Shown here piece after piece: positions 6,168 through 62,019 of a stretch of 64,000 nt of DNA. The position numbers were made by a program, and so were the translations under genes. The notes beneath the pieces are model-generated. The model was not told the DNA's origin. It was given only the letters and a program-made list of their open reading frames with translations, and made no database searches. Source of the stretch: Thraustochytrium sp. TN22 (lineage: Eukaryota; Sar; Bigyra; Thraustochytrida; Thraustochytriidae); the NCBI GenBank assembly GCA_013306675.1, contig JABLUY010000002.1:186001-250000 (forward strand). Reading direction: 5' to 3'. The stretch's first letter is position 1; the number at the start of each line of letters is the position of its first letter.

Positions 6168-6842
6168 GGCCGCCGCGGCCGCCGCCGCGACCGGCGCCCG
6201 CGCGGGGCCGGCCGGCCAGCGCCGCGCCGCGCCGCGCCGCGCCGCGCCGCGCCGCGCGCGCCGCTTGCTTGCCTGCGGCCTGCCTGTGATCGATGAAAAC
6301 GTGCCGAGACACTGACGTGAGCGCGAGACTGCTCGACCGCTGTCCGCCCGCCGACCCGTGGTGTGCGCCGCCGTTGGGAACGCGTCCTGGGCGCGCGAAC
6401 TGGCGCCACTCGGGGTTGCGTAGTGGCATTGTCGGCTGGCCCAGGCAGTGGCAGCCACTGCAGCCTGATCAGACAGGGATGGCAGAGGCGCTGTCCGCGC
6501 GCGCCGCGGCCACGGCCGCCGCGGCCGGCACGGGCGCGAGCCTGCCAGTGGGCGCTGTCTCCGAGTCGGAGTCCGCTCGACGTGGTCGTCCTAGTAGGCC
6601 TACTCTGCTGCGCCAGGAGGTGGCGCGGCGCACCTGCCGGCCAGAGCTGAGGCGGCAGTCCGACGAGAGGCAGGGAGGCGGACCCACGGATACGAATGGC
6701 ACGATGTCGCGCCTTCCTTGCGGCGCTGTTCGGTACGACCCGACCCACTGCAGGAGTTGGCTTGTTGCTAGCCTTGCTAGCCCGGTGGCTTGGTCGCAGA
6801 TCGAGAATCACTTGAGGCCCGTCGGCAAGGGCAAGGAGCACG
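6168..6842. other. Divergent promoter region
   Basis: 675 bp between two divergent start codons. 6221-6256 is a run of GCCGC pentamers (GGCGC on the minus strand, the strand of the left gene). Short TGGCAG/CTGCCA motifs occur near 6447-6460 and 6540. No coding frame looks real. Confidence 0.5.
6221..6256 (-). repeat. GGCGC pentamer array upstream of start
   Basis: Seven perfect copies of a 5-bp unit, G-rich on the minus strand and 54-90 bases upstream of ATG 6167. It is one member of the sense-strand GG array class described in the findings. Confidence 0.85.
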
Positions 6843-13553: not shown

Positions 13554-14891
13554 GACGACGGACGACCCCGCCTCCCTCGCCAAGACCTCCGCTTCCGCCC
13601 GACCGACGCCGGCAATACCGCGACCGCGAGCCGAGATAGCTAGCGAGCTAGCTAGTCAAGATCCTGCCTGCGCACCGCCGCGTCTCTTGATCGCCGCGTC
13701 TCTTGATCCGCACGCAGTCCGACGGATGATCCTATGATTCTGCAGTGCGCAGTGATGGCGCTCGACGGCGACTCGACTTGCGTCTGAAGTTCTCTCAGAA
13801 CAGCAGCCGTCATGTCATCACAGGCGATGCAAGCGTCGTCTCGGGTCTCGTTCGGCGTCCGCCACCGCGAACGCGGTCGAGGCACTGCGGCAGCCTGCGG
13901 CAGCCTGCGGCAGCTGCGGCAGAGCTCGTGCGAGTTCGTGCGAACTCTCGGCCAGCAGAGGCAGGCAGGCCAGGCCAGGCAAGGAAAGATCGCGAGTGGT
14001 TGCTTGTGTCATGCGCCGTGTGCGGCGAGCCTCTGGCGACGTGCCGCAAGCTTTTGCGTCTTGGAGATTACCAGGTGTTACGTGCGATCTCTGAAAGTCC
14101 CCGTCGTGCTTGCTTGTGTCATGCGCCATGTGCGGCGAGCCTCTGGCGACGTGCCGCAAGCTTTTGCGTCTTGGAGATTGGAGGGTGTTACGAGCGATCT
14201 CTGCAAGTCCCCGTCGTGGTCCTTCTCCTCCTCCCCCGAGCTGCCTCACGGCACCGCTGCGACTCGAGAAGCCACCGCGCCGGTTCTCAATGGTCGCTTG
14301 CTTGACGTACTTGCTTGTTTGCTCGTTCGCTCGCTTGGTGCTCTCGTTGCGATTACCGCTCAAACAAATCCTTCTTGGCTTTGTGATTGCGCCTGAGCGC
14401 CGTGCAGAGCCTGACGGAGCATACCCAGCGCAGTCGCAGTCGCAGTCTGAAAGCTGTGAGCGTCGAGAGTCGCTCGTGAGACCGCGGGCCGCGGGCGGCG
14501 GCGTCCTGCTCCCACTGGGACCCACTCGTCGTTCGTGACCTATGGCCTTGAAGATGCCATGCCATGGTTGTGTCCTTGCGACTGCGACTGGGCGTCAAGA
14601 GGCCGCGTTATGCAGAGAGACGGCGACTCGGACTTGGAGGTCCAGCATAGCCTGACAGTAGTTTGCGTCTGGCGTCGCTCGCGGTCTCGTGGTCCTATGC
14701 GTCCTGCTCCCACTCGTTGGTGCCTGCGCGTGCCTGCGTGCCTGCGCGTGCCTGCGTGCCTGCGACCTTGGCGACGTTCTCACTACCGGCGACGTTCAAC
14801 TTGAAGTCCTCGTGGCTTCTGGCTTGCTGCGCTGCTGCGCCAGTTCGGGCGCGACCGCCAGTGCCCGTGGCAGTCCAGAGCGAGAAAACCC
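13554..14891. other. Divergent intergenic region with 110-bp tandem duplication
   Basis: 1.34 kb between divergent starts. Contains the 110-bp duplication (14001-14220), GCAGCCTGCG-type repeats at about 13887-13920, and a GCGTGCCTGC repeat at about 14727-14765. Open frames here shift across the 110-bp units (110 is not a multiple of 3) and look non-coding. Confidence 0.5.
14001..14220. repeat. 110-bp tandem duplication
   Basis: Units 14001-14110 and 14111-14220 both begin TGCTTGTGTCATGCGCC and end CCCCGTCGTG plus two bases. They differ at only a handful of positions, so the duplication is recent. No coding function is visible. Confidence 0.9.
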
Positions 14892-16436: not shown

Positions 16437-17365
16437 GCCGCAGCGCGCCGTTGAGCGCCGCGATTGGCGCGTTGGCGCGGCGCGCCTCACACCCGCCCGA
16501 GCGCGCAGGACGCTCCGGCGCCGCGCCGCGGTGGACTCCTGGCCCGCGCCCCGCCCTGCCCCCTGGTCGCCTCGCGACTGCGCGCGTGAGCGCCTCCGGA
16601 CTCGGTCGAGGCGCGCGTCGCCGCGTCCTGACTTGCCAGTGCTGGGTGAACGGCGGCAACGGTGCCAGTCAGACCGTGACTGGGACTCGGACTGCCAGTG
16701 GGACCGCCTGGGGCCGCCGCTTCCGCTGGGTCCGCTCGCACTTCTCCTTTCTCCTTCTTTTCGCCAGAACCTGGCAGTGCCACGTACGCTGCCAGGGTCA
16801 GTGCCGGGCAGCGCCGGCCCTCAGCCAGCGAGGCCAGTTTGGGTGGGGTGCTAGTCTTGAGCAGGCAGCCAAACCTGCGAACACGAAGCAGAGCGCGCGA
16901 ATCGGCCACAGCAACACGATGGTCGCTGCTGAACCTCGAGACCTCGTGCAACTCACCACATCTCTTTCCCGCGCTCGTCTGCAGATGGCTTTGAGCTTGT
17001 CCTCCGCGCGCACAGCGCACTGGCCAGGGCCCGCCACCGGCGGCAGAGGTGCTGGCAGAGCCCAGTGACTGGGCTCGCGCACACCCGCAGCGGTCCGCGC
17101 CAAGGCTCGCTTTTCCGCGCCGGCGGGCCCGCGCTGGTCCAGCTTTACCGCGGCGCGGGGCGGCGCGGCGCGGGATGGCATGGCGTGGCATGGTATGGTA
17201 TGGCACGGCTCGGCTCGGCGCGGCTCGGCGCGGCGCGGCGCGGCGAGGCGAGGCGTGCGGCAGAGGCGGAGCGGAGCGCAACGTCCGGGCACCGGCACTG
17301 GCGTGCGGTCACGGCAATTTGCCTGTGCAAGGCGAGCGAGGTGCGGCGAGGTCTGACAGTCAGTC
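16437..17365. other. Divergent promoter region
   Basis: 929 bp between divergent ATGs. Contains a perfect TGGCAGTGCCA palindrome at about 16772 and the 19-unit GG pentamer array at 17162-17253. No convincing coding frame. Confidence 0.5.
17162..17253 (+). repeat. GG-every-5-bases array upstream of coiled-coil gene
   Basis: GG recurs at exactly 5-base spacing for 19 units while the other three bases vary (CGC, CAT, CGT, TAT, CAC, CTC, CGA). It ends about 112 bases before ATG 17366 and is G-rich on the sense strand. The variation shows that the spacing is kept while the unit sequence drifts. Confidence 0.9.
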
Positions 17366-24762: not shown

Positions 24763-25389
24763 CTACTTGGCTCCGAGGAGCTTGTCCTTGGCCTCGTTGA
24801 TCTTGGTGGCCACGTAGGTGGAGCCGCCGGTGTCCGGGTGGTTGAGGAGCGCGAGGCGACGGTGTGCCTCGCGAACCTTCTCACGCGGCGCGGACTCACG
24901 GATGCCGAGGATGAGCGCGGCCTCGCGCTTGGTCATCTCGTCCTCGAAGCCGCCCTCGTAGAAGTTCTTGCCGAGCATGAAGTTGAGCCAGCTAAGGAAG
25001 CCGCCCTCGCTCTTGTCGGCCTCCTTGGCGCCCTCGCCGCCCTCAGCGGCGGCGTCCGCCTGCGCCTTGGCCGCGGCATCAGCCCTGGCCTGGCGCCGGT
25101 CGATGGCCTCCACCACGAGCTTGCCGGCGTAAGCGACGACAGCGACGCCGCCGCCCACGAGAAGCGGCGAGACCGACTGCTGCGGCAGCGTGGACCGGAA
25201 GCCGCGCGCCTGCACGAGTGCGAAGCGCTGGCGGCGCAGCTCCGCCTGCTCCGCGTCCTCCAAGTCGTCCAGCCGCGCGCCGGCCGTCACGCCGCCGCGC
25301 AGCGTGCGCACGCGCAGGCCATGGCCATGGCCGCTCGCGCCCACTCTCCGCGCCGCACCGCGCGCCGCCTGCGCTGCGCGCGCCTGCAT
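24763..25389 (-). CDS. Pam18/Tim14 (DNAJC15)-type J protein
   Basis: 208 residues. Pam18/Tim14 sits in the mitochondrial inner membrane and stimulates mtHsp70 to pull preproteins through TIM23. Start ATG 25389 gives a basic presequence (MQARAAQAARGAARRVG). A hydrophobic segment, SPLLVGGGVAVVAYAGKLVV, lies near residues 70-90. The J domain is at the C-terminus: GGFEDEMTKREAALILGI, then the J-motif HPD at residues 184-186 in LLNHPDTGGSTYVATKINEA. All three HPD residues are present. The order (TM then short J domain ending the protein) and the KREAALILG string match DNAJC15/Pam18 rather than general DnaJ. A 35-residue Ala/Glu/Gly-rich linker precedes the J domain. GGCGC and GGGC repeats lie upstream on its own strand. 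Confidence 0.9.
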   Translation of the reverse strand: MQARAAQAARGAARRVGASGHGHGLRVRTLRGGVTAGARLDDLEDAEQAELRRQRFALVQARGFRSTLPQQSVSPLLVGGGVAVVAYAGKLVVEAIDRRQARADAAAKAQADAAAEGGEGAKEADKSEGGFLSWLNFMLGKNFYEGGFEDEMTKREAALILGIRESAPREKVREAHRRLALLNHPDTGGSTYVATKINEAKDKLLGAK

Positions 25390-25734
25390 CCCTGCCTGCC
25401 TGCCACGCGCCTGCCCGCCCACCCGCGCGCCCGCCCGCCCGCCCGCCCGCCCGCTGCTGCCGCGCCGCGCCGCGCCGCGTCGCCAAGAACTTGACTGCAG
25501 GAGTCGGCGTCGTCGCGAAAACTTTTGGTTGGCCAGAAGCGGTTCGGCTGCGTCAGCAGCACTCACAGTTGGTCAGCCGCGGCAGGGACTCACTCTTCTG
25601 CATCCATCTCTTTCCATCTCACCAGCCGGGTCTCGTCGCCGGGCACCTCGCGCCGCTGATTTAATCCTCACATTACCCACGTCACATCGTGTCGTCTCCG
25701 AGTCAACTCAAGTCAACTCAAGTCAACTCACAAC

Positions 25735-25832
25735 TCGTCTCGTCTCGTCTCGTCTCGTCTCGTCTCGTCTCGTCTCGTCTCGTCTCGTCTCGTCTCGTCT
25801 CGTCTCGTCTCGTCTCGTCTCGTCTCGTCTCG
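25735..25832. repeat. CGTCT pentanucleotide array
   Basis: About 19 perfect copies of a 5-bp unit over 98 bp, preceded directly by three copies of a 10-bp GTCAACTCAA unit. Every frame is open, giving artificial Arg-Asp-Glu-Thr or Val-Ser-Ser-Arg-Leu peptides. Confidence 0.95.
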
Positions 25833-26032
25833 TGTTGCGCTCGAACGACGATGAGGAGAAGAAACTTGAGCCCGTCGCTGAGCCTGAGCCTACGACGGGC
25901 GACCGCCTAGGCAGCAGCCAGCACGCCATGCGGGTCGCCTCGAGCAGCAGCCAAGACCAGCGTTGCTCCGGTGGGACGCACCGGCGCTCCGAGCCTCGCT
26001 CGTCCCTCACCTTTCCTCGAAGGCCCCTCCTC

Positions 26033-26033
<1 letters not shown>

Positions 26034-26089
<56 letters not shown>

Positions 26090-26108
26090 CTCGTCGTCGT
26101 CGTCGTCG
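26034..26108. repeat. GTC trinucleotide array
   Basis: About 25 near-perfect GTC/GAC triplets with one interruption near 26089. No protein homology around it, so it is treated as a microsatellite. Confidence 0.9.
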
Positions 26109-26558
26109 GGCGGCGGCGGTCGCCGGTCGGGACGCCGTGGATGGACATCGTGGACAATCGAACCGCCCGCGAATTCCGTGCTCTCGCGAGGCGCGACCCG
26201 AAGACGAGAGACCCAAGCGAGGCAAAGCCCAAACTCTTGTACACAAAACATTACGTCAGACAGCTAGCTGGCACTGGCCAGTGGCTGGCCACTGGCGAGG
26301 CGGCTGCAGGCAGGCCGCAGGCGCTGCCTCTCCAGGTGGCCGAGCGCGGACGTGTGAGTGGCGCGGTACCAGCACCAGTACCAGGAGGCCTATCGCTTCT
26401 TGATCAAGTTCAACTTGTAAAAGGAAGGTGTAAGTACCACTACCACATCGCCGAGAAAAGCAGCGTGAAATGAAATGAAAACTCTGGACGGCCGGCCTGG
26501 CGGGCGCGGCGCGGCGGCGCAGCGCGGCGAGGCGAGGCGAGGCGCGGACAGAGCGGCA

Positions 26559-27503: not shown

Positions 27504-28567
27504 GTAATTCGCCTCGCGTGCGCTTTCCAATCGCTTCCGCGTCCAAGTCTGTGGCGCGCAAGCTACAGCGCACTTGTACCGACGCCACTTCGCTCCGAGT
27601 CCTCGCCTACTTGTGAAAATTGATTTTGAGAACGATCACGTCGGGACCACGTCGCTCGCTACAAGAGCGGCCGTGTGCATCGAGTGATCGCAAAGAGTGT
27701 ATGCGACGCAAACGGGGTTCCCGCTGCGCTCCCTGCGAGTGCCAGGCAGTGCCAGCCAGCACCGCTGGCATCATGATCTGAGGCATCCATCAGTCCAGGG
27801 CGACAGGGAGCCTGACAGTGAGAGTGGGTGAGTGGGCGAGCGAGTGAGCTCCCCTAACGGTCGCTCCGTGGCGCCCCCCACTTGACACTGCAATCAATGC
27901 CTGTAGTAGCCTAGTGCAAGCTCATCTCCAAGGCTTCCAAGCGCCAGCGGTTCGGAGCGCCACGCCTTCTCGTGCCGGCGCCCGCCTGCCGCGGCCGGCG
28001 CGCCGGCGAGCAGGCGCAGGAGGTACGTGAAGAGTCAGCCGAGGCCTAGGGCAGCCGACCCACTTTGGTTTAGCTAGCTGCCAAGGCTCGGGCTGCACTG
28101 GCACCGGCAGTGCCAAGAGCTCTAACTTGCTAACTTACGACCACGATCCTGGGGCGCTCCTCACTGGCACTGCCAGACCTCAGGCTGTGATTGTCTGTGT
28201 GACAATCTGTGCCACATCATTGTGAGGTTCCGCGCCGCCGCTGGTGCCAGCCAGTGCCACTGGTTGGGCCAGTCGGGCCAGTGGCCCTCCGCGGCACGGT
28301 GGTTATCACGGCGGCGGCAGACCTGAAAACGCAGGCGCGCGGGCAGCGGCGGCGGCGGCGGCGCGCGCGGCGCGGCGCGGCAGGCAGGCAGCGGCGGCGG
28401 CGGCGGCGCGGCGCGCGACCTCGGTCGCGGCAGCGCGGCCCGGCTGTCGGCGGAGCAGGCAGGCAGGCGGGCGGGCGGGCGACGCGGCGAGACGCAGTTG
28501 GCGGCGGCGCACGGCACGGCTCGGCACGGCTCGGCACGGCACGGCGCTCGACGCGGCGGGAGGGATC
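27504..28567. other. Intergenic with TGGCANTGCCA motifs and G-rich leader
   Basis: 1.06 kb between plus-strand genes. Several copies or near-copies of TGGCANTGCCA (about 27746, 28105, 28169, 28245). From about 28340 the plus strand is CGG/GGCGC-rich; 28512-28545 is a GG-every-5 array. No coding frame is convincing before ATG 28568. Confidence 0.5.
28512..28545 (+). repeat. GG-every-5-bases array (GGCAC/GGCTC)
   Basis: Seven units with GG at 5-base spacing, ending about 23 bases before ATG 28568, sense strand G-rich. Confidence 0.85.
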
Positions 28568-35743: not shown

Positions 35744-35770
35744 CTAGGCTAGGCTAGGCTAGGCTAGGTT
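35744..35770. repeat. CTAGG pentanucleotide repeat
   Basis: Five tandem CTAGG units in the 80-bp gap between two convergent stop codons. Too short and single to be telomeric. Confidence 0.8.
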
Positions 35771-37792: not shown

Positions 37793-39157
37793 CGAGCATT
37801 GCAGCAGCGGCTTTGCTGCTTCCAGGCTGCAGCGCCGGGCGTGCGCCAGCCATCGGGCAAGAGCTCGTCGCGGCGAAATCGCACGAAAAACTTGGCGGAA
37901 AGTGGCCGTTCCCTACACAGTGAAGGCAGAAGGACAGCCTTTTGAGTGGCCGAAGGACAGCCTTATGAGGGGTGGCTCGCGGAAAATCGTCCCTCCCCTC
38001 CCAAGTTCTCCTTTTCGCTTCCGCGAGCACTTCTTTTGTCACCATTGACAGCGTCCTCATGCGGCGCAGGGCGAGCGAGTCTCTCGCTCTCAACTTTTTT
38101 TTCAACGAGGAAGCGAGACATCTCGATGGCGGCGCGCGCCGCACTCCTTCCGAAACGTACCACTTAGCATCGCCCTAAATCACCAACCCATGCCATGCCG
38201 GGCTTCCAAGGTTGGTTCGTCTGACGCTGCCTCTAAACTCTAGAACAAGCCCTGTTCGACCGCGTTCGACCCTCGGCGCACCTGTTCCTGCACCTGCAAA
38301 GCATGCTTGCGCGGCGTCGTCTTCCGCGGCCCGCCAGGGGGGCCAGGCTTTAAGGACTTCGCCACAACTTTTACCAGCCTACTAAAATCCTCTCTTCTCC
38401 AACCTTTTCCAGCAGCCTGCCTGAGCCAGCTGGTCCTCCAGCTTTAGCTCGACACTGCCAGCTCCAGCTCCAGCTCCAGCTCCAGCTCCGGCTCGAAGCT
38501 GAGCTCAGGGCCTGAGCTGAGCACGCAAAGCCGTTGAGCCTGTTTGCGTCGCGATAGGCCGCGGCCTGGCCGGGGTCAGCCTCTCCCTCGCCGAGTCGCC
38601 GCTGCCGTGCCCCCTCGCGGGCGCGCGCGGGCGGGGCGCGCGGGGCGTGCGGGCGCGGCGCGGCGGCGGCGCGGCGGCGGGCGCGCGCGCGCGGCGGCGG
38701 CCGGCGGCGGCCGGCGCGCGGGCGGCGGCCGCAGCGGCCGACGGGATCGGCCGGCGCGCCTCGTTCCTGCCTTCGCGCGCGGGGCTTCAATTGAAGTGCC
38801 TGCGGCGCCTGGTCTCTGCTCGACAGAGTTTGAACGCGGCGCGGCGAGGAGCAGGTCGGCGCGGCGCGCGCGAGGGCGCGCGCGCGCGGCGGAGGGCAGC
38901 GCGAGCGCGAGCGCGAGCGGGCGCGGCGGCGCGGCCCCGGCCCCGGCCGGCCCCGGCCCCGGCGGCAGCCCGTGGCGCGAGAGCGGGGCTCGGCCTGAGC
39001 CCGAGCCGAGGTCGGCAGGCGAGTCCTCCCTCCTCCCTCCTCCCCGTCGGCTCGGTCGGCCAAGGAGGCCGGTCCGCCCGTCGCGGAGCGGAGCGCGGCG
39101 CGGCGCAGAGAGGCAGCGGGCAAAGATTGATCCGCGGGCGGCGGGCGGGCGGGCGCG
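37793..39157. other. Long divergent promoter region
   Basis: 1.37 kb between divergent starts. CTCCAG hexamer repeat at about 38460-38490; extreme CG-rich stretch 38600-38960; GCGGC pentamers near 39090-39105; GGGC repeats 39135-39154 directly before the CDC50 ATG. No coding frame accepted. Confidence 0.5.
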
Positions 39158-44923: not shown

Positions 44924-45623
44924 CCTCTCTCGCAGGCGCGACTGCAGCGGTCTGGGCGCTCTGCGCGGGTCGCACTGGGGCTCGCGCCGTGCAGGCGCCG
45001 CGCCGCGCCGCGCCGCGCCGCTCGCGCGTTGGGCGTCTGCCTGCACGCTTGCCGTCGGCCATCTCATCTCATCTCATCACCTTTGCCTCGCAAGATGGGA
45101 CGGCGCGGGCTCGCTCCCATGACCACGCGCGCCGCGTACGAGCCAAACGCAGAGCCTCCCACCAACTTCGGTCGCCGTGGGCGAGCCGGCGATCGTGCCT
45201 GCAGCGAGCGCGCGCGCGCGCTCTCGCGGGCGCCGCCCGGCGGCGCGCGCAGCGGAGCGAGCGCGAGCCCATGGCGCCGCCCGAGCGAGCTCCGTCTCGC
45301 CACGGCGGGCATCCATGACAGACAGACTGCGAGACCCCGCGTCGCCGTCGGCGCGGCGCGCAAAGCGCAAAGCGCAGCGCGCGGCGCGCAGAGCGCAGAC
45401 AGGCCAGGCCTCCGCAGGCGCTGCGCGGCGGAGCGAGGCTCGCGCTGCGCTGCGCTGCGCTGTGCAGAGCGCGGGCTGGGCTCGAGCCGCGGCGGCGGCG
45501 ACCCGTGGCTGGCCCTGGCAGGCGCGCAGGCAGGCGGGCGGGCAGGCGCGCAGGCGGGCGCGCGGCAGGCAGGCAAGCGGGCGGCGGGCGGGCGCGAGGC
45601 AGGCAGAGCGCGAGGAGGAGGAG
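44924..45623. other. Divergent promoter region with two opposed G-rich blocks
   Basis: 700 bp. CGCCG pentamers at 44995-45020 and ATCTC pentamers at 45060-45075 read as GGCGC and GATGA on the minus strand (transporter side). From about 45510 to 45620 the plus strand is rich in GGGC, GCAGG and GGCGC (enolase-superfamily side). The strand of G-richness switches in between. Confidence 0.6.
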
Positions 45624-52806: not shown

Positions 52807-54174
52807 TCATTCTTCGTCGTCGTCATCATCGTCGTCGAGCGCAGGCACGTGCAGACTCGCCTCAAGGCGCTCTTGCGCCTTGACCGCCGCTGGTGCCGTG
52901 GAAGTGGCCTTGAGGCCCACATCCGCGGCCAAGTTTGGATTCTCCTTGCCCTGGTAAATGCGCCGCACGTCCACCGCGTGTTTGAGAATCTCGTCCGCGC
53001 GCTTGCCGGACTGCGCGAGGCGCCGCACGCGGCCGCCTTGGTCATCTGCCTCCGACGATGATGACGACGACGACGCCGCAGCACGCTGCTTGTTGAGGTC
53101 GCGCAGCGGCTTCTCCGAGGCCGCCGAGACCGTCAGCATAACGGACGGCTCGAGCTTAGGCAGGGTCACCTTGAGCTCGCCAGATGCCTTGGACCGCTCC
53201 GTCTTGGCGCGGTCCGCACAAACCTCGGCGTTGGTCCCGCCCGGGTACGCCAGGCGCAACGTCTTGTCGCGGAAAACGACCTCTACGAAGCGCGGGAAAA
53301 CCTGGCAGTCGATGAGTGAGGTGTCCACGTAGCGCGGGAGCTGCACGCGGAGGTAAAAGTTTGGCTCGTCCTCCTCGAAGCAGAACTCCAGGCCGCCCTC
53401 ATTGCACTGCCGCACGCGGCCGTCGGGGAAGAACTGCTTCTCGCGCGCGCGCGCCACGGCGTCGGCGTGCTCCTTCTCATAGTTTCGCTCCTTGGGCATG
53501 CGCTCCTTCTCGCGCGCCTCCTTCTCCGCCTTCTCCTCGGCCATCTCGCGGTACATTTCCGTACGCAGCTCCGGGGTGTACGGCGCATTGTCGCCCGAGG
53601 TATTTGCCACGGCCGGCTTCGCCGCCTCGGCGGCGCGCTCCGTCTCAATGCGGGCGGCCAGCTCGTCCTGCAGCACTGCTCGCCGCTGCGCCGCGCGAAT
53701 GCGATCCGACTTGGTGATGCGCATGCCGTCGAGCTTCTCCAGCCACGGTAGGTGTAGGATGATGTAGTCCTTGTGGCCGTCCCAGTCGGCGCACGGGTTG
53801 CCCACCACGTACAGCTCGCGCAGCATCTTGTTGTGCTGCAGGTTCTCCACGCTCTCCTGCAGCGCGGAGCACGGCACGAAGTTCAGCATCATATCTAGCT
53901 TGTTGAGAAACTCGCACGATTGCAGGCCCTCCACCTTGGTGATGTTGTTTTGCGAGATGTTCAGGTACTCGAGCTCCTTGAGATGCTGCAGGTTCTCTAG
54001 CTTGCCGATGATGTTATTTTGCAGGTACAGGATCTTGAGCCGCCGACAGAGCGTGCCCACCACCTCGATCTTCTCGATTTCCAGCTGGTGCAGCGCCAAC
54101 TCCTCCAGGTCCGCCATAGTCCCCTCATTGTGCTCCGACTTGCGCCGGATCAGCTCCGCCGAGATGCGCACCAT
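52807..54174 (-). CDS. DNAAF11: DNAAF11/LRRC6 (axonemal dynein assembly factor)
   Basis: 455 residues starting MVRISAELIRRKSEHNEG, which matches human LRRC6 (MGRITEDLIRRRAEHND). The protein helps pre-assemble axonemal dynein arms in the cytoplasm with other DNAAFs and HSP90-type chaperones. Residues about 20-140 carry the short LRRs (RLKILYLQNNIIGKLENL, LEYLNISQNNITKVEGL), then the LRR cap ELYVVGNPCADWDGHKDY. A charged coiled coil follows (about 185-265). A CS/p23-like domain spans about 290-380, with LPRYVDTSLIDCQVFPRF matching human YRYMDTSLIDVDVQPTY. Ends in an Asp/Glu run. Presence implies motile cilia or flagella. Divergent from the lectin/PSI gene. Confidence 0.95.
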   Translation of the reverse strand: MVRISAELIRRKSEHNEGTMADLEELALHQLEIEKIEVVGTLCRRLKILYLQNNIIGKLENLQHLKELEYLNISQNNITKVEGLQSCEFLNKLDMMLNFVPCSALQESVENLQHNKMLRELYVVGNPCADWDGHKDYIILHLPWLEKLDGMRITKSDRIRAAQRRAVLQDELAARIETERAAEAAKPAVANTSGDNAPYTPELRTEMYREMAEEKAEKEAREKERMPKERNYEKEHADAVARAREKQFFPDGRVRQCNEGGLEFCFEEDEPNFYLRVQLPRYVDTSLIDCQVFPRFVEVVFRDKTLRLAYPGGTNAEVCADRAKTERSKASGELKVTLPKLEPSVMLTVSAASEKPLRDLNKQRAAASSSSSSSEADDQGGRVRRLAQSGKRADEILKHAVDVRRIYQGKENPNLAADVGLKATSTAPAAVKAQERLEASLHVPALDDDDDDDEE

Positions 54175-59052: not shown

Positions 59053-59119
59053 GGCGCGGCGCGGCGAGGCGAGGCGCGGCGCGGCGCGGCGCGGCGAGGC
59101 GAGGCGAGGCGAGGCGAGG
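59053..59119 (+). repeat. GG-every-5-bases array upstream of Aha1-like gene
   Basis: Fourteen consecutive GGCGC/GGCGA units on the plus strand, with a second block of five units at 59183-59204, ending 15 bases before ATG 59219. Confidence 0.9.
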
Positions 59120-59218
59120 AGGCCGCGCGAGGCCGACGGCAACGCGTGCGCGTCTCGCGCCCCCGCGTGGCGTGCGAGGGACGGCGCGGCGCGGCGCGGC
59201 GCGGCGCGTCCCACAAGG

Positions 59219-60364
59219 ATGAGCGCGACGAGCGGCGCGTGCAGCGAGGACGTGGAGCACGAGCGCGCGGCGGAGGGCGCGGAGGGGAGAGGCAAGGGCG
59301 CGGACTTTAGCTATAGCGAGCGGGACCTGATGCCGGAGCTGACCAAGGCGCTGCGCGGCGAGCTGGTGGAGCTGGCGCTCGTGGAGGACGCGCGCGAAGA
59401 GGCGCACGTGACGCAGGTGATGGCGTACGGGGAGGCGTTTGAGAGCAGGGCTCGTGCGCCGAAGCACAACGGCGAGCAGGTGGTGAAGCGCGCCTTCTCG
59501 GCGCGGATGGAGGTGAGCTGGTGGGGCCGCGTCACGCTGGGCAGCACGACGCTAGGCAGCGCCACGGGCAAGATCAAGGTGGGCGAGGTCGACCTAGAGA
59601 CCGTGGACGACGTGAGCTCGTGGCAGCTGGAGACTAAGCTCGACCTGGAGTGTGTGCCGGGGATGCCGGCCAACGCCGCGCCCGAGCCGGAGCTTTCCGA
59701 GGTGGAAGCCTTGCTGAAGCGGCGCGTGCGCGAAGAGGGCGAGGCCAAGGTCGCGCACGCAGTGCAGCGTGTGATGCAGCGCGTGCTGGTAGCAAAGGGC
59801 GGAGCCTCCAAGGCCAGCGAGAACCAGCAGCTGGAGGGCGGGGAGACGCAGCACGCGCACAACAGGGAGCGCGAACGACAGGATGAGGTGGAGGAGAAGG
59901 AGAAGGGCGAGGGCGACGCGCTGTGCAGCGACTTGCGCAGGCAGCTGCTGGGCGCCGAGTATTTGCGCATCGTGGACGGTGAGGACGCGAGCGTGCTGGA
60001 GATGCCCACGTGGCAGCTGCGCATCTGTACTATCAACGACCGGGACGTGCCGGCGCTGTGCGCGCGACTTGCAGACCATCCGGCGCTGCGTGGGTTGGAG
60101 TTGTACTTTAACTACATTGGTGATGAGGGCGTGGGCGAGCTGGCCAAGGCGCTGTCCGGTCTAAAGGCGTTGGAACGCATCGACCTGCGGCGCAATCGCA
60201 TCACGGACGTCGGGCTTCAGCTGCTGGTGGCGGCGTTGGGCGCCGGGCACGCACCGGCGCTTAAAGAGCTGGATTTGCGCGAGAATGAGGCCATTGGCGA
60301 TCTCGGCAAGCGCATGGTGGAGGCCTTGGCTCTCCTGCGGCCCGCCATCAAGGTGAGCCTGTAG
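59219..60364 (+). CDS. Aha1-N-domain-like protein fused to leucine-rich repeats
   Basis: 381 residues from ATG 59219. Residues about 25-180 resemble the N-terminal domain of Aha1, the HSP90 ATPase activator: VTQVMAYGEAFESRARAPK, FSARMEVSWWGRV (compare FFYEWSVKLNWTG), TGKIKVGEVDLETVDD, and the closing helix KRRVREEGEAKVAHAVQRV. A charged linker (about 205-240) follows. Residues about 245-381 contain three RNI-type LRRs (LRGLELYFNYIGDEGVGELAKAL, LERIDLRRNRITDVGLQLL as separate units). The Aha1 C-domain is missing. Inference: HSP90 co-chaperone with an LRR client-binding part. The similarity to Aha1 is judged by eye. Stop is TAG; a decayed LRR copy lies just after it. Confidence 0.65.
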   Translation: MSATSGACSEDVEHERAAEGAEGRGKGADFSYSERDLMPELTKALRGELVELALVEDAREEAHVTQVMAYGEAFESRARAPKHNGEQVVKRAFSARMEVSWWGRVTLGSTTLGSATGKIKVGEVDLETVDDVSSWQLETKLDLECVPGMPANAAPEPELSEVEALLKRRVREEGEAKVAHAVQRVMQRVLVAKGGASKASENQQLEGGETQHAHNRERERQDEVEEKEKGEGDALCSDLRRQLLGAEYLRIVDGEDASVLEMPTWQLRICTINDRDVPALCARLADHPALRGLELYFNYIGDEGVGELAKALSGLKALERIDLRRNRITDVGLQLLVAALGAGHAPALKELDLRENEAIGDLGKRMVEALALLRPAIKVSL

Positions 60365-61520: not shown

Positions 61521-61570
61521 CCTGCCCTCGCTCGCCGCCCGGGGCCGCCTGCAGAGCTCGCGCGCCGGGC

Positions 61571-61620
61571 GCTGCGCTGCGCTGCGCTGCGCTGCGCTGC
61601 GCTGCGCTGCGCTGCGCTGC
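61571..61620 (-). repeat. GCAGC pentamer array upstream of adenylate kinase
   Basis: Ten perfect 5-bp units, 51-100 bases upstream of ATG 61520; CAGG tetramers follow to 61650. Confidence 0.9.
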
Positions 61621-61960
61621 CTGCCTGCCTGCCTGCCCGCCTGCCTGCCGGCCTGGCCTTGCGCGCGCGAGCTCGCGGGCTTGGCGCTTTGCGAAGGCGA
61701 CCACGGCGAGCGCGGCAGCCGCAGCGCCACAGCAGAGCAGCCTCTCTGAGGGAGAGCAGGTGTTGAGGCGACACCGCCAGTGCAGGCCTGCAGCGGGCGC
61801 GCTGCGGCAGCCGCTGCGGCGCGGGCCCGGCCTGCAGGGGCTCACGGCCCACGGCCGAAGTCCTGCGGCGCTTTGGCCGAGTTTGGGCGCCTCGCGCTGC
61901 GCCGAATGATGGCCAGGTCGGCAAGGCAGCGCAGTGTGTAGAGTGCGTGCAGTACTGGTA

Positions 61961-62019
61961 CAGTGCAGCGGAGTGCAGTGCAGTGCAGAGCAGTGCAGTG
62001 CAGTGCAGTGCAGTGCAGG
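61961..62019. repeat. CAGTG pentamer array
   Basis: About eleven CAGTG/CAGAG-type units with two interruptions, between the two divergent promoters. Confidence 0.85.

Follow-up and report, generated by a model that had tools for sequence, protein, structure and literature searches.

The question raised by this locus is why, on the coding strand ahead of several start codons, the dinucleotide GG should recur at every fifth base. A preliminary description of the 64-kb window (the whole stretch of DNA analysed, 64,000 nucleotides in length) had drawn attention to these arrays and had proposed that the period itself is what matters. The 5-base ladders, a ladder being defined throughout as GG repeating at exact spacing, are real, but they are one size class of a wider gene-start repeat pattern with units of 3, 4, 5, and 6 bases. 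The explanation regarded here as moderately probable is that they are G-rich microsatellites grown by slippage and oriented by a skew domain at the 5' ends of genes, a domain that is itself probably tied to transcription.

The letters of all nine stretches named in the preliminary description are as it gave them. Ten period-5 ladders of at least five rungs are present in the window when either strand is counted (Table 1), whereas 20 shuffles that preserve dinucleotides average 0.5, and three of the ten (35747-35768, 38937-38958, and 59276-59297) were absent from that description. Ladders of other periods are also in excess in the window, most clearly those of periods 3, 4, 6, 9, 10, and 12. 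The array at 38937-38958 is the sole window ladder that opposes its nearest gene, and its strand says little because the array is nearly palindromic, while that at 35747-35768 is not an upstream element because it lies in a convergent gap. The array at 61571-61620 reads GCTGC/GCGCT on the plus strand and GCAGC/AGCGC on the minus strand and is devoid of GG. Two ladders (26526-26547 and 44998-45019) fall inside the longest ATG frame of their gene (from ATG 26475 and 45067, respectively) and upstream of the preferred starts 26625 and 44923; the stretch 59053-59204 lies within a long plus-strand open frame from 57839, the first part of which is omitted by the coding model.

Table 1. Five-base arrays of the window and their position relative to start codons
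Feature	Position	Strand	Relation to genes
Period-5 GG ladder, 21 rungs (main array)	17152..17253	+	112 bases upstream of ATG 17366
Period-5 GG ladder, 5 rungs	26526..26547	+	77 bases upstream of preferred ATG 26625, phospholipase/carboxylesterase-like gene
Period-5 GG ladder, 7 rungs	28513..28544	+	23 bases upstream of ATG 28568, ankyrin-repeat gene
Period-5 GG ladder, 14 rungs	59053..59119	+	99 bases upstream of preferred ATG 59219, leucine-rich-repeat gene
Period-5 GG ladder, 6 rungs	59178..59204	+	adjoins preferred ATG 59219 on its upstream side
Irregular sense ladder, 5 rungs	59276..59297	+	within called coding sequence of the gene starting at 59219
Period-5 GG ladder, 7 rungs	6222..6253	-	54 bases upstream of ATG 6167
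Period-5 GG ladder, four rungs	25460..25480	-	about 70 bases upstream of ATG 25389
Period-5 GG ladder, 5 rungs	44998..45019	-	74 bases upstream of preferred ATG 44923, sugar transporter-like gene
Pentanucleotide array without GG (AGCGC on minus)	61569..61636	-	about 50 bases upstream of adenylate kinase ATG 61520
GGCCGGGGCC-type array scoring as a ladder	38937..38958	.	nearly palindromic; nearest gene CDC50-like, ATG 39158
GGCTA array	35747..35768	+	gap between two convergent genes

Other tandem repeats were encountered in the same window. A perfect array of 20 CTCGT units (ACGAG on the minus strand) occupies 25734-25833, about 345 bases ahead of the minus-strand gene whose start is at 25389, and fifteen copies of AGTGC, likewise without GG, occupy 61942-62018 in the intergenic region that also holds the GCGCT array. 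The model treats a run of 25 TCG units with 97 percent matches (26034-26108) as a brief coding segment, and a 110-base unit is present in two tandem copies with 92 percent matches at 13996-14218, in sequence that is not called as coding. The window also has a dynein assembly factor-like gene (52810-54174), and an Rfam scan of the window returned zero matches over the gathering scores.

The assembly comprises 37.9 Mb in 453 contigs at about 67 percent GC, of which approximately 0.25 Mb was analysed outside the window, in random loci and in loci picked for ladders, the latter drawn from contigs C1-C5. Genes were called by a seven-state coding model, self-trained on the window and 20 loci, according to which 64 percent of that sequence is coding; locus L017 (124 bases) was excluded from the gene-model counts by the length filter. 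All start codons are predictions from the coding model, 90 being usable in the window and random loci and 116 when the targeted loci are included, and every position given below is relative to these predicted starts. The window arrays are included in the counts of start-region skew, masked skew, fourfold sites, coverage, perfect repeats, and ladders in 87 upstream regions; the strand test on ladders outside the window is the one that is free of them.

For that test, each ladder was assigned to the nearest start codon irrespective of strand, and each start was counted once per period. A total of 53 period-5 ladders were available outside the window (21 in random loci and 32 in ladder-picked loci), four of them without a start. 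Within 200 bases, 15 starts had the ladder on the sense strand and one on the antisense strand (two-sided binomial p of about 0.0005), a split contributed as 4 to 0 by the random loci and 11 to 1 by the ladder-picked loci. The bias was gone farther out, with 8 sense to 7 antisense at 201-400 bases and 7 to 8 beyond 400 bases. Ladders in called coding sequence were treated under two even-handed rules, the count within 200 bases being 15 to 1 under the one and 14 to 1 under the other, by which such ladders are dropped. A cluster-based count (n = 49) gave 20 sense to 5 antisense within 300 bases (p 0.004), 7 to 7 at 301-800, and 2 to 4 beyond 800, the rest being one sense cluster inside a called gene and three without a start. 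The clustering joins 59053-59204 to the ladder within coding sequence at 59276-59297, and that cluster is consequently scored as opposing a neighbouring gene. The window itself has 6 sense to 1 antisense ladders within 200 bases. That the arrays precede start codons and carry their GG on the sense strand, as first proposed from the window, is thus borne out in the loci analysed elsewhere in the genome.

Coverage in the window and random loci describes the same confinement. In every 50-base bin out to 200 bases upstream, period-5 sense ladders account for 1.2 to 2.5 percent of the bases, whereas antisense coverage is 0 percent in the three bins nearest the start codon (to 150 bases) and 0.02 percent at 150-200. 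Across the seven bins from 250 to 600 bases upstream, there is no sense excess for period 5, the antisense value being the higher in five. The preliminary description had reasoned that arrays equally frequent on antisense strands, in coding regions, or in convergent gaps would speak against it. The data do not go against it on these grounds: period-5 ladders all but skip coding sequence (coverage of 0 to 0.16 percent), and the two strands are level downstream of stop codons (0.20 versus 0.22 percent).

Since the genes were called by a self-trained model and not from transcripts, it could be argued that the model simply favours whichever strand is rich in G around starts. Such an artefact is very hard to credit. 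Position -3 is a purine in 84 percent of the called starts (A in 47 percent, G in 37 percent), and the strand is set by the whole gene because the called genes average 468 codons. Pfam matches over the cut-off on the called strand were found for 11 of the 20 sense-facing array-bearing genes outside the window, as opposed to one of the five opposed genes; in the window, 6 of the 10 frames first scanned had such a match. The genes are those of a eukaryote, and a whole-genome search for the light-harvesting family PF00504 gave zero matches, so that this single-celled organism is probably not an alga; with the dynein assembly factor-like gene of the window also considered, a non-photosynthetic protist with flagella is probable. 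The depletion of upstream ATG was also tried as a marker of transcribed leaders and was set aside: the count of ATG in the nearest 150 bases, relative to that in the next 150, is 0.50, which says nothing specific because CAT (0.34), ATC (0.50), and TCA (0.45) are likewise depleted.

The claim that the period is what matters did not survive comparison with other unit lengths. In 87 upstream regions of the window and random loci, sense ladders of at least five rungs numbered 18, 14, 13, and 19 for periods 3, 4, 5, and 6, respectively, against 1, 0, 1, and 3 on the antisense strand. Periods 8, 9, 10, and 12 are likewise sense-biased, partly as multiples, and periods 7 and 11 are rare. In the random loci, the ratio of sense to antisense within 200 bases was 12 to 1 for period 3, 4 to 0 for period 4, and 10 to 1 for period 6, so that these periods share both placement and strand bias with period 5. 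A DNA element with strict 5-base phasing, half a helical turn, that is read by a protein or by nucleosomes would accord with the existence of long exact ladders (21 rungs at 17152-17253), with the abundance of six-rung words genome-wide (3381 and 3447 occurrences on the two strands of the whole assembly), and with some excess of antisense GG pairs at lags 10 and 11 (z of 6.3 and 4.2, lag 6 being the highest at 7.8). On the sense strand, however, lags 10 and 11 fall short (z of 3.3 and 0.7) of lags 3, 5, 6, and 12 (z of 9 to 12), and no single helix-related period is favoured. With the lag counts and the ladders of periods 3 to 12 taken together, a strict period was rejected, and the phased element is deemed most improbable.

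Perfect repeats, counted by unit, show the same polarity. In the 300 bases upstream of starts, CGG was found 21 times versus 4 for CCG, and GGCGC 13 times versus 2 for its complement, with further instances of AGGC (6), CGGG (5), AGGCG (4), and AGCG (4, versus 3 of CGCT). The bases within these upstream repeats are G 1120, C 718, A 160, and T 86, as compared with G 280, C 271, A 193, and T 180 in the 300 bases after coding segments, where AGGC was found four times. Per 10 kb, the density of perfect period-5 repeats is 9.1 over the 300 bases upstream, as compared with 5.2 for deeper intergenic sequence and 3.3 for 3' flanks, and that of period-3 repeats is 9.7, 4.5, and 5.7, respectively; perfect period-4 repeats have no upstream excess (6.2, 5.5, and 8.6). 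The deeper intergenic repeats were not turned by gene, and their figures refer to density and not to orientation.

Repeats of the other periods also run on into the genes. Pooled periods 3, 4, and 6 cover 2.85 percent of the first 150 bases of coding sequence on the sense strand and then 1.46, 0.67, and 0.30 percent of the following bins, while the matching values for period 5 are 0.16, 0, 0, and 0.07 percent; period-5 ladders are nearly gone from coding sequence because units of five would shift the reading frame. In the 300 bases after stop codons (the window together with loci L001-L021), the pooled periods 3, 4, and 6 cover 0.68 percent on the sense strand versus 0.11 percent on the antisense strand, an excess that is not predicted by a domain anchored at the start. 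The 50 bases following stop codons are also AT-richer (0.453), with A over T.

The second claim, that GG is kept while the other bases drift, was examined in arrays seeded solely on lag-5 identity and then lengthened in whole units, with 3 of 5 positions required to match, i.e., without reference to GG. Out of 127 such arrays, 89 had a GG consensus and fewer than four G, and the mismatch rates of their columns 1 to 5 were 0.100, 0.094, 0.094, 0.108, and 0.161. With the end units removed, the rates were 0.085, 0.080, 0.082, 0.085, and 0.126 in 62 arrays, and 0.101, 0.067, 0.067, 0.082, and 0.120 in the 34 arrays from the window and random loci. The two G columns vary about as much as columns 3 and 4, faster drift being confined to column 5, and a special protection of GG was rejected on these rates. 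The impression of a preserved GG arises, we think, because ladders are recognised by GG in the first place.

Behind the arrays is a strand-biased domain around the start codon, in which G outnumbers C and A outnumbers T over the last 150-200 upstream bases. GC skew (G over C on the sense strand) is zero some 330 bases upstream and climbs to +0.15 beside the start codon. Of the first 150 upstream bases, 22-24 percent lie in tandem repeats, as do 18 percent at 150-200 and 10-15 percent beyond; with the repeats masked, the skew is still +0.116 ± 0.025 at 0-50 bases and +0.075 and +0.087 in the next two 50-base bins, then 0.02-0.04 from 150 to 350 bases, and finally zero to -0.05. The skew continues into the genes at fourfold-degenerate sites, where successive bins give +0.233 (codons 1-20), +0.237, +0.173, +0.130, +0.028, -0.079, -0.179, and -0.200 (codons 300-500); the bootstrap ranges by gene for codons 1-60 (0.16 to 0.27) and 180-500 (-0.24 to -0.13) do not overlap. 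AT skew (A over T) is also positive in the first three upstream bins (+0.22, +0.18, and +0.08) and at the fourfold sites of codons 1-20 (+0.165), and turns negative after codon 40. A sense ladder of period 3-6 is present in 37 of 86 genes, and these genes have a skew of 0.098 outside the ladder versus 0.037 in genes that have none (p 0.005). As genes with a sense ladder are thus more skewed outside it too, the arrays mark the domain and do not make it. Over the same region (the window and loci L001-L021), the 100 bases preceding the start have a GC content of 0.744, the next two segments outward 0.713 and 0.691, and the value at -400 is 0.668.

A gradient of this kind might be produced by selection on the mRNA for a 5' region that is rich in purines and less prone to pair with itself (purine loading), with the arrays as mere passengers. 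The purine fraction is indeed highest by the start codon, declining from 0.585 beside it to 0.50-0.52 at -200 to -400 and from 0.614 to 0.397 along the fourfold sites of genes. In addition, the 100 bases before the start are predicted to fold 2.8 ± 0.95 kcal/mol more weakly than unskewed shuffles of equal GC. Nonetheless, the first 100 coding bases fold 2.2 ± 0.7 more strongly than such shuffles, and the other eight folding windows are within two standard errors of the control, a mixed outcome for structure avoidance. Effects of initiation usually extend less than 100-200 codons, a reach that the skew gradient exceeds. Purine loading as the primary cause is hence judged rather unlikely.

The explanation favoured here, slippage repeats oriented by a gene-start domain, would run as follows. 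The domain spans roughly -200 to +300 around the start codon, with G over C on its sense strand and, closest to the start codon, also A over T. Given this skew, a repeat arising from local sequence would be likelier to be G-rich on the sense strand, with units of 3, 4, 5, and 6 behaving alike, and replication slippage would lengthen the resulting arrays. Slippage had been the last of the alternatives offered in the preliminary description and is the one among its readings that fits best. Growth by slippage is suggested by the simplicity of the units, by the local runs of alike units, and by the excess over shuffles. Composition may explain the orientation of the ladders and not their abundance, because they exceed shuffles that keep each region's dinucleotides (13 period-5 ladders versus 0.8), and it is for this abundance that slippage is assumed.

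The skew domain is probably tied to transcription, an anchoring that we infer from its polarity and its gradient. Simple deamination of C on the non-template strand fits poorly, since it would raise T, which is low near the start. A G-rich non-template strand favours R-loops and quadruplexes. R-loops are a plausible candidate cause of the skew, and it may be suggested that exposure of the G-rich non-template strand, as an R-loop or a G-quadruplex, maintains the bias.

It could also be proposed that the repeats are themselves functional G-rich elements in the leader or the DNA, in which GG runs of any period would fold as two-layer G-quadruplexes and tune transcription or translation. Motifs of the form (GG N1-4)x3 GG number 190 on the sense strand versus 36 on the antisense strand of 86 upstream regions, and 29 to 2 when the loops are exactly 3; four GG runs with loops of 1 to 4 are present in 62 of the 86 regions on the sense strand and in 23 on the antisense strand. 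Allowing quadruplexes is predicted to improve folding in 14-18 percent of 100-base sense segments between -200 and +200, versus 0-2 percent of antisense ones. This motif excess would, however, follow from the skew, which is present also outside repeats and at synonymous sites. Furthermore, the GG columns are kept no better than the others, the main array (17152..17253) is predicted to form hairpins at -43.7 kcal/mol that are unchanged by the quadruplex option, and 49 of the 86 genes are without any sense ladder of period 3-6. Such elements are considered unlikely as the explanation, although selection for a G-rich leader would be expected to look much alike. A more specific version, which we hold to be quite improbable, is a tunable G-ladder in the 5' leader of many genes, wherein GG repeated on the non-template strand by a small unit of any length would keep an R-loop or two-layer quadruplex open at the gene start, slippage in the number of units would tune the expression of individual genes, and the purine skew of the first 60-80 codons would be part of the same device.

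Taken as slippage repeats in a skewed domain, the arrays illustrate how a repeat ladder resembling a phased element can follow from local composition. The passage from G-rich to C-rich synonymous skew along genes, together with oriented repeats, preserves a strong natural imprint of a process that acts asymmetrically on the two strands where genes begin, and the skew could serve as a guide to the position of gene starts, and to their strand, in GC-rich genomes of protists for which no transcripts are available. Searches of open-licence papers turned up no account of oriented G-rich gene-start arrays with this skew, although several related systems are described there. In human promoters, tandem repeats are dense at gene starts and the G-rich versions CCG/CGG and CCCG/CGGG prefer the coding strand, as is the case here, albeit more weakly according to the part of that study concerned with orientation (59-60 percent, counted up to 5 kb from the transcription start, PMC3566118, 2013) than the 15 of 16 starts within 200 bases found here for units of 5. 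Across 1270 eukaryotic species, the content of short tandem repeats delineating gene bodies shifts near translation starts (PMC11686069, 2024), a likeness in position; the portion of that work dealing with this shift centres on units of one and two bases and does not report strand orientation for longer G-rich units.

With regard to the skew, a strand bias of G and C centred on the 5' ends of genes is a shared feature, yet in plants and fungi C outnumbers G around the transcription start, opposite skews being noted for several protists and animals (PMC555766, 2005), whereas G exceeds C here; the word microsatellite is absent from that paper. The vertebrate substitution asymmetry near transcription starts, for which transcription-associated mutation and repair have been proposed (PMC2927911, 2010), is similarly a strand bias near gene starts. 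In mammals, the sense strand has G+T over A+C (cited in PMC555766), while G and A are together in excess near the start here, and this purine direction, unlike the mammalian G and T, therefore separates the candidate causes. The present case belongs to this gene-start microsatellite and skew kind, being stronger in its orientation and directed towards purines.
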